Part shown: piece by piece, positions 5,994 through 37,620 of the stretch
How positions within the stretch are numbered: the stretch's first letter is position 1
Layout of the letters: every line of letters begins with the position of its first letter
Assembly: GCA_020718065.1 (NCBI GenBank)
Contig: DYDE01000026.1
Span: forward strand, 1 to 37,620
Length of the DNA: 37,620 nucleotides
DNA from: Marinifilum sp.
GTDB taxonomy: Bacteria > Bacteroidota > Bacteroidia > Bacteroidales > CG2-30-32-10
Direction: 5' to 3'
Translations under genes and position numbers: made by a program
The notes under the pieces: generated by a model
The model's input: the letters and a program-made list of their open reading frames with translations, nothing else
What the model was told of the DNA's origin: nothing
The model's database searches: none

Positions 5994-7490
5994 ATGCGAT
6001 GTTTAGCTACAAAATTGAAAATAACAATGTATATGAAAAACAACATTATTTACCAGCTTAATTCTTTTTTATTAAAAAAGGCATTTTATAATGCAGTCTT
6101 ATTAACTGTTTTTTGCTTTAGCACAAATGCCCAGCCAGGTGCCAACGACCCTACATTTAACCCCGGTACGGGAGCAAACAGTTGGGTCTGGACAACCGCC
6201 CTACAAAGCGATGGTAAAATTATTATAGGAGGCGATTTCACTTCCTATAATGGAATTACAAGAAACTATATTGCCCGCCTTAATACCGACGGAACGTTGG
6301 ATGATACATATAACACTAGTATGGGTGCAAATAATCATGTTTTTACAACTGCCTTACAAAACGATGGTAGAATTATTATAGGAGGCGATTTTACTTCTTA
6401 TAATGGAACTTCAAGAAACTATATTGCCCGCCTCAATGTCGATGGAACGCTTGACGCAACTTTTAACCCAGGTACAGGTGCAAACAATACTGTCGGCACT
6501 ACAACCATGCAAAGCGATGGTAAAATTATTATCTGCGGTAGTTTCACTTCCTATAATGGAACCATAATACACCGTATTGCTCGCCTCAATGTCGATGGAA
6601 CGCTTGATGCTAATTTTAACCCCGGGACGGGAGCAAATAATGCAGGATTAAATTGTGGGGTATACACAACATCCATACAAAGCGACGGGAAAATTATTAT
6701 AGGTGGTGATTACACTTCATATAATGAAACTCCAATAAACGGTATTGCCCGCCTCAATACAGATGGAACGCTTGACGCAACTTTTAACCTCGGTATGGGT
6801 GCAGGCGGTTATGTCTATTCTACTTCTATACAAAGTGATGGGAAAATTATCATTGGTGGCGCATTCAATTCCTATAATGGAACTACAAGAAACAGTATTG
6901 CTCGCCTCAATGCCGATGGAATGCTTGATGCTAATTTTAACCCTGGTTCGGGCTTGGGAGGAGTATACCCCTATGTATCTACAACTGCAGTACAAAGCGA
7001 TGGTAAAATTATTATCGGAGGCACATTCACTTCCTATAATGGAACCATAAGAAAATTTATTCTCTGTCTCAAAGCCGATGGAACATTGGACACTACTTTT
7101 AACCCCAGTATTGGAGCAAACGATTGTGTCAATACAACCGCCATACAAAGTGATGGTAAAATTATTATCGGTGGTAATTTTACATCCTATAATGGAACGG
7201 GTAGAAATAGAATTGCAAGAATTTTAGGCGGTAATGCAGGAATAAGCTCTATGCAGTCAAAAACAATATACATTTATCCCAATCCTGTTTCTGAAGAATT
7301 GAATATTGAAGCAAAAGGAAATAATGAACAACTATACTATGAGATTATGAATTTATACGGAAAAGTGCTTTTTACAGGTAATTTCTATGAAAAAACTATT
7401 GTTCAATTAGCTGATCTTGTTCCGGGAGTTTATTTAGTTAAACTTGTAACTAACAAAGGCTTTGAAATTAAAAAAATTATAAAGGAATAG
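5994..7490 (+). CDS. Secreted delta-60 repeat protein with T9SS type A C-terminal sorting domain
   Basis: About seven repeats of SDGKIIIGGDFTSYNGTxRNxIARLNxDGTLDAxFNPGTGAN; signal peptide; C-term IYIYPNPVSEELNIEAKGNNEQLYYEIMNLYGKVL...LVPGVYLVKLVTNKGFEIKKIIKE. Start could be 6033 (MKNNIIYQL). Confidence 0.88.
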   Translation: MRCLATKLKITMYMKNNIIYQLNSFLLKKAFYNAVLLTVFCFSTNAQPGANDPTFNPGTGANSWVWTTALQSDGKIIIGGDFTSYNGITRNYIARLNTDGTLDDTYNTSMGANNHVFTTALQNDGRIIIGGDFTSYNGTSRNYIARLNVDGTLDATFNPGTGANNTVGTTTMQSDGKIIICGSFTSYNGTIIHRIARLNVDGTLDANFNPGTGANNAGLNCGVYTTSIQSDGKIIIGGDYTSYNETPINGIARLNTDGTLDATFNLGMGAGGYVYSTSIQSDGKIIIGGAFNSYNGTTRNSIARLNADGMLDANFNPGSGLGGVYPYVSTTAVQSDGKIIIGGTFTSYNGTIRKFILCLKADGTLDTTFNPSIGANDCVNTTAIQSDGKIIIGGNFTSYNGTGRNRIARILGGNAGISSMQSKTIYIYPNPVSEELNIEAKGNNEQLYYEIMNLYGKVLFTGNFYEKTIVQLADLVPGVYLVKLVTNKGFEIKKIIKE

Positions 7491-7728: not shown

Positions 7729-9096
7729 ATGATTGCTAACTTTTCTAAAAGAATTAAATCAGGTTTCCTCATTCTATTACTCATTATGCCATTAATATCA
7801 TTTTGTCGTATAGATAAACATGATATTGTAATTACCAATGTTAACATTGTTGATGTAAAAACAGGGAAAATATTAAAAAATAAAACAATAGCTATTGACA
7901 ATAATCGAATCACTGCCATTTATGATAAGGAAATTATAAGCTCAGATTCAACTATTGTAATTAACGGAAAAGGTAAATATCTCATCCCCGGACTTTGGGA
8001 TATGCATGCTCACTATAAATGGAGCCATGTAGATCTGGATCCCTTACTAATTGCCAATGGTATAACAGGAGTTAGAGAAATGTGGGGTAATATGCCAGCC
8101 TTTGTATATATACCAATAAGAACACAACAGCAAAAGTTATTATCTCCGGATGTTTATCTTTCAGGTGATCTTCTTGATGGAAATCCGCCGTCTTTTCCTG
8201 CAGGCTGTTTAGTAATTACAACACCAAATGAAGCTATTGATGCAGTACAAAGTCAAATTGACAAAAAAGTTGATTTTATTAAAGTTTACAGTAGCTTATC
8301 TGAAGATTGTTTTATGGCTATTGCTAAAGAAGCCAAGAAAAAGAACATCACATTCGCCGGTCATATACCCAATGGAGTTTCAATCTACAAGGCAATTGAA
8401 GCAGGAATGGTCAGCTCGGAACATTTATATGGGTTTCTGAATGCATGCTCATCTGTTGACACATCAAATCAAGCACTTATTAGTACATTTTCCGAAAAAA
8501 GGTTTGATTCTCTATGCTCTGTGTTAGCTAAGAGTGGTATGTGGTTATGCCCAACCTTAACAGTTAACAGGGCAATGGAATATTTAAACGATACGACATT
8601 TACAAATGATAATAGAATGGCGTATCTTCCCGGATATGTTATTGACATATGGAATCAAAAAATAAACCCTTATACAAAAACCGAAATAGATAATTTTGCT
8701 ATAAGTGCAAAAACAAGGTATCTTTTTGAGCTAAACTTAATAGGCAAAATGAATAAGAATGGTGTAAAATTTCTTGCAGGAACCGATTTTCCAAATCCTT
8801 ATGTTTTCCCTGGATTTTCTCTGCACGATGAATTGTCGCTTATGGTTAAGGGAGGTATGCAGACACTTGATGCTTTAAAGACTGCAACAATCAATCCTGC
8901 AATATTTATGAACAAAGAAAATGATTTTGGTTCTGTAGAGGTTGGAAAAATAGCAAGTTTATTACTTTTAAACATGAACCCACTGGAGAATATTGAAAAT
9001 ACAAAAACTATTGAAACTGTTATCATACGAGGAAAGGTGTATAATAGGAAAGCGCTGGATTTAATGTTAGTACAATCAAAATCCAACGGCAGATAA
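7729..9096 (+). CDS. Amidohydrolase-family protein with N-terminal signal/TM segment
   Basis: GLWDMHAHYKW metal-binding motif, FAGHIPNG, SSEHLYGF, GTDFPNPYVFPG, C-terminal GSVEVGKIASLLLLNMNPLENI. Confidence 0.88.
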   Translation: MIANFSKRIKSGFLILLLIMPLISFCRIDKHDIVITNVNIVDVKTGKILKNKTIAIDNNRITAIYDKEIISSDSTIVINGKGKYLIPGLWDMHAHYKWSHVDLDPLLIANGITGVREMWGNMPAFVYIPIRTQQQKLLSPDVYLSGDLLDGNPPSFPAGCLVITTPNEAIDAVQSQIDKKVDFIKVYSSLSEDCFMAIAKEAKKKNITFAGHIPNGVSIYKAIEAGMVSSEHLYGFLNACSSVDTSNQALISTFSEKRFDSLCSVLAKSGMWLCPTLTVNRAMEYLNDTTFTNDNRMAYLPGYVIDIWNQKINPYTKTEIDNFAISAKTRYLFELNLIGKMNKNGVKFLAGTDFPNPYVFPGFSLHDELSLMVKGGMQTLDALKTATINPAIFMNKENDFGSVEVGKIASLLLLNMNPLENIENTKTIETVIIRGKVYNRKALDLMLVQSKSNGR

Positions 9097-9150: not shown

Positions 9151-9615
9151 ATGGAAAACATAACACTACAAGGAGAAGAAAACTTTTTATCTATAACTTT
9201 TGACGATGTTTATGGATTTCCAAACTCAACTTGCCATTGGGGCGGATACGAAGTTCGCACAAATTTAAAAATCAAATCAGGAAACTTTCAAGTTAACTCC
9301 ATACTTTGGACATCGACCGGAGAATTGCATGAATTCTTTCAACAACTAAAAGAATGTAATCGCAACTTGAAAGGAATTGCCAATTATATGTCCTATGAGG
9401 GGAATTTAATATTCACTGCTACTTACGATACAATGGGTCATGTAACTATTAAAGGTGAATTTTCAGAACAAAATCAATTTAATAACAATTTAAGATTTGA
9501 ATTTTTATCAGACCAGACATTTATTTCCAATACAATTCAAGACCTTGAACGAATTTCTGAAAAATATGGAAACATGTTTGGTGTGAAAAAACAAAATAAA
9601 CATACAGTAAATTGA
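9151..9615 (+). CDS. Small cytosolic protein, possibly a WapI/DUF6228-like immunity family protein
   Basis: 154 aa with no signal peptide; CHWGGYEV...GELHEFFQQLKECNRNLKGIANYMSYEGNL...GHVTIKGEF resembles small bacterial immunity proteins from memory only. Confidence 0.4.
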   Translation: MENITLQGEENFLSITFDDVYGFPNSTCHWGGYEVRTNLKIKSGNFQVNSILWTSTGELHEFFQQLKECNRNLKGIANYMSYEGNLIFTATYDTMGHVTIKGEFSEQNQFNNNLRFEFLSDQTFISNTIQDLERISEKYGNMFGVKKQNKHTVN

Positions 9616-9869: not shown

Positions 9870-10254
9870 ATGGAAATAAAAGAAAATTCTTTAAAAGCAG
9901 GAGAAAAAATAGCAACATCAGTCTGGTGGCGAAAAAAGAGGATAAAATATAATATTGGCCTTATTATTAGTGGTATTATTGCATTTATCATTTACCGCAA
10001 TTATTGTAGAAAAACTTGTTAAACCCAATAATCCCGATGCAGAAATGAATTTGATTTTTATATTTATTCAGGGGCTCTTTTATCTAATATGCATGCTAAT
10101 CGCTAATATTTTCTATTTTTTAGGACCAATAGCAGAAAAGCTAATAAAACCAAAAAATATAAACATATACCGAAAAATAACCTTTGGATTGGGTTTTTGG
10201 TTTTCTTTCGCTTTGCCTTTTTCAATTCCAGTGGTTCTCCTTATAAATATTTAA
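9870..10254 (+). pseudogene. Frameshifted small multi-TM protein
   Basis: ATG 9870 frame: MEIKENSLKAGEKIATSVWWRKKRIKYNIGLIISGIIAFIIYRN..*; the frame then shifts to ...IIVEKLVKPNNPDAEMNLIFIFIQGLFYLICMLIANIFYFLGPIAEKLIKPKNINIYRKITFGLGFWFSFALPFSIPVVLLINI (ORF 9955-10254). The two halves look like one protein. Confidence 0.65.
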
Positions 10255-10520
10255 TGAAATATGAAACAATCTCCTCTTGTGCGAAGATTGTAGGCATCAT
10301 CAAATCGCAAACCCCAAACTTCCAGCAAGTGCAATCGTAAATCAAAAATCGTAAATCGTAAATAACGTTGTGTGCCTTCGTGCAAATCCTTCGTGTTTGT
10401 GGTTAAGAAAAATCGTAAATCCCAAAACTTTCAGCAAGTGCAATCGTAAATAAAAAAGACTTTTTCAAATTTTTTTCCTCTTTAAAAAATTCTACGAATC
10501 AATTCCCTGCCATTCTGTCA

Positions 10521-11000
10521 CATCCCGAGGCTCCGCGACGACGTCCGCTGACATTCTGTCACGTTCGGAGACTCCGCAACAACATCCGACGACTCCTTGA
10601 CCTCGTCCAAACTCTCTGCGACATCATCCCAAGACTCCGAAAACACATCCAAACAGTCAGAGACCTCGTTCAGACAGTCCGAGATCTCGTCCAACGTCTC
10701 AGCGATGACGGCCAGATAGTCCGAGACAACATCCCAAAACTCCGAAAACACATCCAGACAGTCCGCAAACTAGTCCAACAACTCTTCGACAACATCCAGA
10801 AACGCCGCTATCTCATCCAAACAATCCGCAACAACGTCCAACAACTCCGAGGCCACATCCAGATAATCCGAGGCCTCGTCCAGATAATCCGAGGCCTCGT
10901 CCAAACAATCTGCGACGATGTCCAGATACTATGCAATGACTTCCAACGATTCCGAGATATCATCCAAACAATCCACGACCTCGTCCTACTAATCCTCTCT
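10521..11000. repeat. 21-bp-period tandem minisatellite, about 23 degenerate units (consensus near CGTCCAGATAATCCGAGGCCT)
   Basis: The TCC core recurs every 21 bp at 10564, 10585, 10606, 10627, 10648 ... 10984 with no indel; two further units at 10523 and 10544 are offset by 1 bp. C/A-rich on the + strand, GC-richer than flanks. Confidence 0.93.
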
Positions 11001-11395
11001 CAAGTCCACCCCTCCCCTATCAATGTTAAATATTTATAAGTTCACGTCCAAAAACATGCTGACTAATTGAAACAATTCCTCCTACCCGCAAATTCTCAAA
11101 ACATATTACAAAAAAGACATTCGTACATACCAAAAGCCAATTCCACAAATTACCAATCCTATAATACCAACTTCTCTGTAATTTCCACCTCCTTAATCGT
11201 AAATCGTAAATCCAAAATCGTAAATTTCTCTAGGGTTCTCTGCGTATTCTTTGCGAATTCTATATTAAAAAATTCACAAATCTTAAATCCAAAACTTGCA
11301 GCATAGTCGAACTATCGCAAATCGTAAATTATAAAATTATTTTTTTATAATAAAATTAGATATATCTTTACTTTTGTTTTTTAAAGTAACATCTT

Positions 11396-12105: not shown

Positions 12106-13146
12106 ATGTTAGATATGTCATCATCAGGCTCAGGCAATAAAACACCAAAAAGTTTCTGGAAACGACCTGAAGGTATCACAGGGGGTCTTTTTTTGGGAGG
12201 TATTATTTTAGGAGCAGGGTATCTTTTATATACTTTCTTGCCTTTTATCGTTTCAATATTACAGAATACGCTCAAAGCTACCATCTTTTTTGTTCTATTA
12301 GCTGCTTTGATATATGTTATTCTCGATAAAAAATTCAGAACACTAATTTGGTACATGTATAAAAGCATAATGCGTGCTGTTACTTCTTGGTTCGTTCAAA
12401 TAGATCCCATCGGAATATTAGAAACTTATGTTGAAGACCTATACAAAAACCTCCGTGAAATGGATGGACATATTGCTAAATTAAAAGGTCAGGTAGCAAA
12501 ACTTCAAAGAGTTATCGACGACAATTCCCGCGAAATGGAAGAAAGCATGCGCATGGCCGAACAGGCTAAAAAAGCAGGCAACAAAGATATTCTTATTATT
12601 AATACCCGCCAATATGGGAGACTAGAAGAATCTAACAAACGATATAAAGAACTTCTGAGTAAAATGGAGATTTTATATCGCATTCTTTCCAAAATGTATA
12701 AGAACTCTGGTTATCTTATCAAAGATATAGAAAACGAAGTTCGTATGCGCAAACAAGAACGTGCAGCAATTCAGGCTGGATATTCAGCAATGAAAAGAGC
12801 AATGTCAATTATCAATGGTGATCCCGATAAAAAAATGATGTTCGATATGGCTATGGAAGCTATTGTTGACGATGTCAGCAACAAAGTTGGAGAAATGGAA
12901 CGATTTATGGAAGTATCATCCACCTTTATTGACAGTATTGATCTGCAAAATGGCATTTACGAACAAAAAGGGCTGGAATTGTTAGAAAAAATGGAAAACG
13001 ATGGCATTTCATTCTTAATGGCAAGCAACAAAACAAAAGAAATTCCAACAGCCGAAGAAGCAAAAATTATTCCGAATAGCGAAACAGATAAAAATACAGT
13101 TGACGATAAGGCTACAGATAATAACTACAAGAGTTTCTTTAATTAA
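12106..13146 (+). CDS. Membrane-anchored coiled-coil protein, possibly PspA/Vipp1 (ESCRT-III-like) helical architecture
   Basis: Two N-terminal TM segments (GGLFLGGIILGAGYLLYTFLPFIVSIL; ATIFFVLLAALIYVIL), then long helical ILETYVEDLYKNLREMDGHIAKLKGQVAKLQRVIDDNSREME...; ORF and membrane topology strong, family tentative. Confidence 0.7.
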   Translation: MLDMSSSGSGNKTPKSFWKRPEGITGGLFLGGIILGAGYLLYTFLPFIVSILQNTLKATIFFVLLAALIYVILDKKFRTLIWYMYKSIMRAVTSWFVQIDPIGILETYVEDLYKNLREMDGHIAKLKGQVAKLQRVIDDNSREMEESMRMAEQAKKAGNKDILIINTRQYGRLEESNKRYKELLSKMEILYRILSKMYKNSGYLIKDIENEVRMRKQERAAIQAGYSAMKRAMSIINGDPDKKMMFDMAMEAIVDDVSNKVGEMERFMEVSSTFIDSIDLQNGIYEQKGLELLEKMENDGISFLMASNKTKEIPTAEEAKIIPNSETDKNTVDDKATDNNYKSFFN

Positions 13147-37546: not shown

Positions 37547-37620
37547 AATCGGGTTGGTTTTTTCCAAAATCGGGGTGATTTTACCTCAAATCGGGTTGAT
37601 TTGATGTTAAATCGGGTTGA
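37547..37620. repeat. 21-bp-period tandem array of palindromic core (A)AATCGGGTTGATTT (at least 3.5 units, truncated by window end)
   Basis: Cores begin at 37547, 37568, 37589 and 37610, exactly 21 bp apart; AAATC-GGGTT-GATTT arms are reverse complements; 7-nt inter-core sequences differ. Confidence 0.9.

Follow-up and report, generated by a model that had tools for sequence, protein, structure and literature searches.

Introduction

Heptanucleotide simple sequence repeats (SSRs) such as TAACTGA repeats have a preferred unit length irrespective of gene content, according to the account of Mrazek 2007 given in PMC4679880, and occur in some Bacteroidetes among others. The BrickBuilt repeat of Porphyromonas gingivalis is a minisatellite within a miniature inverted-repeat transposable element (MITE), with a 23-nt unit, a single sequence family and inverted-repeat ends (PMC4596501). 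Archaeal Borgs carry tandem repeats of perfect units, with lengths of 18, 20, 21, and 36 nt in the examples presented (PMC9879509). Here we describe an intergenic tandem array in Marinifilum sp. (Bacteroidota; assembly GCA_020718065.1), located in a window of 37,620 nucleotides that comprises positions 1 to 37,620 of contig DYDE01000026.1. Most intergenic arrays detected in this genome have a period of 21 bp or a multiple of it, and their units are unrelated in sequence, with the exception of two groups of relatives and an element present in three copies.

Results

Phase and structure of the window array

The window array consists of approximately 21 units in which every step is 21 bp, with 0 indels and 28% of the bases off consensus. 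Cyclic profile alignment over 447 bp yielded 124 mismatches and 0 indels. Sequence identity in positions 10500-11010 was 0.53-0.57 at lags 21, 42, 63, 84, 105, and 126, and below 0.37 at all other tested lags (5-129). Mean identity at lags 21-105 (10561-11001) was 0.62, compared to a null mean of 0.30 and a null maximum of 0.33 in 1000 Markov-resampled sequences, where the best of periods 15-30 was taken in each. An earlier note, made from the sequence alone, had described a TCC core recurring at 21-bp steps without an indel despite strong divergence, and the autocorrelation and profile alignment bear this out. Nineteen of the 37 TCC in 10501-11010 share one phase of 21, and 14 share a second phase 9 bp later. 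The same note had counted about 23 strict 21-bp units; the 21-bp phase stands, the unit count is about 21, and the left end is a 41-bp direct repeat (TRF) instead. The array head was also present on three other arrays (contigs C92, C26, and C149) at 80-85% identity, and no full copy of the window array was found elsewhere in its own genome. With units in the 10-100 bp range, placed head to tail without spacers in more than two copies, the array is a minisatellite by composition. Coordinates are listed in Table 1.

Table 1. Features of the window and of the dispersed element in the same genome.
Feature	Position	Strand	Description	Basis
21-bp-phased array	10561..11007	.	~21 units, consensus roughly ACGTCCAAACACTCCGCGACC	autocorrelation, profile alignment, unbiased periodicity scan
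Array head	10507..10588	.	41-bp unit carrying TGACATTCTGTCA, present twice	TRF, own-genome search
Perfect 15-bp inverted repeat, left arm	10240..10254	+	brackets array	
Perfect 15-bp inverted repeat, right arm	11026..11040	-	brackets array	
Stop-free frame over array	10419..11039	+	206 codons, without usable start; judged no gene	
Second 21-bp array	37547..37620	.	unrelated, AATCGGGTTGATTTTACCCAA; cut by contig end	TRF
Dispersed ~700-bp element	L016:1433-2223, L017:1485-2239, L018:1448-2133 (full copies); L019:1-160 (contig-end fragment)		own genome	

A class of arrays with one period and unrelated units

A periodicity scan open to periods 7-90 was performed on 960 kb of the same genome (24% of 4.08 Mb; an earlier pass covered 706 kb), a draft in 206 contigs that is 90% complete and in which several arrays sit at contig ends. 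The scan returned 32 intergenic arrays with periods of 21 (18 arrays), 42 (3), 63 (2), 84 (2), 7 (5), 43 (1), and 64 (1), one array being counted twice through a split at the boundary between scanned pieces and three representing one dispersed family. Periods were multiples of 21 in 25/32, and no intergenic array in these 960 kb had a period of 8-20 or 22-41. Locally shuffled sequence (553 kb) gave zero arrays by the same scan. DNA from other organisms (approximately 744 kb, pattern-matched parts masked) gave intergenic periods of 15, 22, 29, 38, and 74 and never 21, hence the scanner has no preference for 21. A separate contig search with a 21-bp pattern found arrays from other Bacteroidota, Treponema, and cyanobacteria; these are biased towards period 21 and were excluded as evidence for the lock. 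Contigs that had not been picked for arrays (approximately 722 kb) contained 16 arrays with multiple-of-21 periods, from which we extrapolate about 90 such arrays for the whole genome.

Relatives carry arrays as well. Those of G003 are mostly 7-bp, which outnumber the 21-bp ones, and include periods of 21, 42, and 63; periods of 42 and 7 occur in both G002 and G001. Intergenic 7-bp arrays (TGGATGT, GGTCAAT, TATTGAC, AATTAAC) were located at L188:10576-10925, L179:1151-1425, and L184:1426-1675 in G003, and at L165:4826-5050 in the Marinifilum genome.

Comparison of unit profiles in 325 pairs, over all rotations and both strands, gave a mean similarity of 0.306 vs. 0.297 for permuted profiles. 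Two pairs were strongly related, L139 with L249 (0.95) and the window array with C81 (0.83). The own-genome search found the related second array at C81 and, on C92, C149, and C26, three array copies with the head of the window array and another unit. Common ancestry of all arrays was rejected, as just two strongly related groups and the shared head connect them.

Signals at lags 7, 14, 10, or 11 were absent inside the 21-bp arrays (lag-7 and lag-14 match: z = -0.9 and -1.1), and 21 is therefore the primitive unit, neither three 7-mers nor two half-turn units. The missing lag-7 signal rules out trimers of 7-mers, and the arrays did not behave as heptanucleotide SSRs. These results bear on a mutational explanation, in which slippage or repair in this lineage favours 21-bp (and 7-bp) duplications that afterwards drift without function. 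Such a ruler agrees with the 7-bp arrays of this genome and its relatives, with the location of arrays wherever intergenic space is, and with whole-unit higher-order blocks, which slippage or unequal exchange typically produces. It does not predict the lack of 14-, 28-, or 35-bp intergenic arrays in the 960 kb scanned, nor the lack of a 7-bp residue within the 21-bp units. We consider it quite possible, if short of an even chance, that the ruler alone produced the arrays.

Length is kept while sequence diverges

The dispersed element of about 700 bp is 21-bp periodic throughout, and its palindromic TGACATTCTGTCA head is common with the window array. Its copies on C92, C149, and C26 differed at 60-66 positions per pair, with 89 variable columns overall. 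The sole indel among these copies over approximately 700 bp was 63 bp long (three units), with 0 small indels, so that copy number in this element varies by whole units as in minisatellites. As control, further intergenic repeats dispersed in this genome were aligned and contained 873 mismatches and 131 gaps overall; with a single pair taken from each family and divergence limited to 5-20%, 9 families with 160 mismatches and 19 gaps remained, or 0.119 gaps per mismatch. At this rate the array copies, with roughly 93 substitutions among them, should show approximately 11 small indels, and 0 were observed (Poisson P0 = 1.6e-5, Fisher p = 3e-4). Over 26 arrays (7446 bp) there were 2009 mismatches to consensus vs. 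14 indels, a count that is biased because badly shifted arrays escape detection. Length changes out of step with the period are rare in the three-copy element, and are indicated to be rare in the other arrays. Selection on length or period, as suggested in the earlier note, is supported by the contrast of 11 expected with 0 observed small indels in this one element, together with the period common to unrelated arrays. The absence of small indels from diverged copies is left unexplained by a mutational ruler alone.

The window array is non-coding

The earlier note had read a heptapeptide coding signature on both strands. Since 21 bp is seven codons, the window array might be a present or recent gene for a heptad-repeat protein (coiled-coil or proline-rich). 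Amphipathic heptads can be read in one minus frame, which has just two stops, and one plus frame has three stops, both as counted in that note; the fully open third plus frame, which spans 206 codons, had been overlooked. Coding itself found no support. Column entropies by position mod 3 were 0.91, 0.76, and 1.08 (p = 0.47), with no third-position excess. Stops in the six frames numbered 5, 3, 0, 5, 4, and 2, compared to 4.6, 2.2, 1.8, 6.7, 3.9, and 4.3 expected when each column was shuffled among units. The open plus frame lacks a start, as no open reading frame of at least 30 aa began from ATG, GTG, or TTG within it, and Pfam returned only generic coiled-coil matches for it, under the curated cut-offs. 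Other arrays of the class carry stops in all six frames. The three-copy element had 10-23 stops in every frame, and its variable columns by codon position numbered 29, 28, and 32 (p = 0.85), again with no third-position excess; the comparison of substitutions by codon position that the earlier note had proposed thus reveals no bias. The heptad appearance is a consequence of a period, 21, that is a multiple of 3. Flat mod-3 variation, stops at chance level, the missing start, and sub-threshold Pfam matches rule out coding on either strand. The window array is non-coding, and a heptad-repeat gene, present or recent, is hardly credible.

Transposon ends and RNA structure

A minisatellite borne by a MITE, of the BrickBuilt type, could explain why the window array lies between the arms of a perfect 15-bp inverted repeat and why the C92/C149/C26 element is dispersed in at least three copies, and a 23-bp minisatellite within a MITE is known in P. 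gingivalis (PMC4596501). The 15-mer was, however, about as frequent in the genome as its reversed-pattern control, and a comparable flank-to-flank inverted repeat was found in 0/19 other testable arrays. For these two reasons the inverted repeat is probably due to chance. As no inverted repeats are shared between arrays, MITE ends were ruled out, and we regard a MITE origin of the window array as very improbable.

Structured RNA would fit the dyad-symmetric units found in 6/26 arrays (p<0.05 each), where one or two were expected. The window array had no dyad symmetry (p = 0.97), its folding z-scores were -1.5 and -1.25 on the two strands, no Rfam family was detected within the window, and no motif was common to the units. 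That the arrays act as structured RNA is accordingly most improbable. A common dyad-symmetric binding site was also rejected, being confined to a minority of arrays and absent from the window array.

The double helix as a possible ruler

With 10.5 bp per turn of B-DNA, two turns take 21 bp, and no smaller whole number of bp would remain in phase along an extended array. We propose the double helix as the ruler because exactly 21 bp is shared regardless of sequence and because the slips in period lie near whole turns. The slipped periods, 43 and 64, are compatible with neither codons nor 7-mers and correspond to 10.75 and 10.67 bp per turn; for these two cases, errors of a single base that became fixed within a larger block are an equally good explanation. 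The arrays concerned (L170:6001-6375 and L254:3376-3725) each have a period of a multiple of 21 plus one base, and the 43-bp unit contains hairpins (ATACCC...GGGTAT).

The window array belongs to a genome-wide intergenic class with unrelated units and a locked period. Members of the class gain and lose whole units or unit blocks, as the 63-bp indel and the higher-order periods of 42, 63, and 84 show. Substitutions build up, and indels that leave the 21-bp phase are rare in the three-copy element and, as the counts indicate, in the others. The array may be read as a helically phased lattice, for instance through coherent curvature or by an architectural protein that sits on one face of the double helix without sequence specificity. 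An out-of-phase indel would then break the lattice and be lost.

Several observations weigh against a helical constraint. There was no 10.5-bp harmonic in the A/T, purine, or G/T unit profiles (second harmonic 0.080 vs. 0.1 expected), and the predicted bend relative to column-permuted controls had a mean percentile of 0.53 in one model and a marginal 0.61 (standard error 0.057) in the other; curvature from phased A-tracts was rejected on these grounds. Array placement was much like intergenic space in general, and the absence of arrays at convergent sites was not significant. G004, of the same family, had zero arrays in 151 kb. The clean indel test comprises one three-copy element, in the least favourable control families the ratio, based on few events, lay between 0 and 0.04, and the count across arrays would overlook or trim any with strong shifts. 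The mutational ruler is a serious rival that may well explain the shared period, and does so about as well as helical constraint.

Between the two sources of selection named in the earlier note, translation has been discarded, and two helical turns are the best reading of the period, with curvature not clearly optimised. Helical constraint of two DNA turns has, in our judgement, nearly an even chance of being what keeps the arrays in 21-bp phase. More doubtful is the wider proposal of a sequence-independent architectural element in the intergenic DNA of this Bacteroidota family, which would be defined by period alone, keep its phase by selection, and provide a lattice for a nucleoid protein or coherently curved segments.

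Surroundings of the array

Degenerate AATCGTAAATCGTAAATC and CCAAACTTCCAGCAAGTGC repeats flank the window array on both sides (10333-10457 and 11181-11329), and similar repeats adjoin the C92 and C149 copies. A gene for a WapI-like immunity protein lies upstream at 9151-9615 (Pfam PF24716, E = 6e-26). Proteins encoded at 7729-9096 and 12106-13146 had no match in the five other family genomes, which thus offered no orthologous intergenic region for comparison. A coding 153-bp repeat at 5994-7490 belongs to a beta-propeller protein (DUF5122) that carries a type IX secretion tail domain, and such a domain fits Bacteroidota. The unit type of the second 21-bp array recurs at L139:16567-16972 and L249:4-199.

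Discussion

Unit sequence or slippage is the usual explanation of repeat arrays. In this genome a single length, equal to two turns of the helix, has been reached by unrelated sequences. If the phase is selected, the arrays would constitute a regulatory or structural DNA feature that is invisible to sequence-similarity searches. If the cause is mutational, they would imply that replication or repair measures out 21 bp. The open-access literature searched contained no report of such a ruler or of a genome-wide lock at 21 bp, and we do not claim priority.

Bacterial intergenic minisatellites and variable number tandem repeats likewise consist of head-to-tail units of 10-100 bp whose copy number changes by whole units. 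The present genome differs in that many arrays of unrelated units keep one period, divergence among units is high, and there is a deficit of small indels. Heptanucleotide SSRs resemble our arrays in having a preferred unit length, and 7-bp arrays are found in this genome too; the survey of Mrazek 2007, as cited in PMC4679880, concerns units of 1-11 nt, whereas the units here are 21 bp without a 7-bp sub-period. BrickBuilt is also a non-coding minisatellite with leader and tail, dispersed through a Bacteroidota genome (PMC4596501), but here the unit is 21 bp, many units are unrelated, and the ends are not shared. Borg repeats form many independent arrays with different units scattered over one genome (PMC9879509), as do the arrays described here, in which, unlike in Borgs, the units are diverged and locked at 21 bp.
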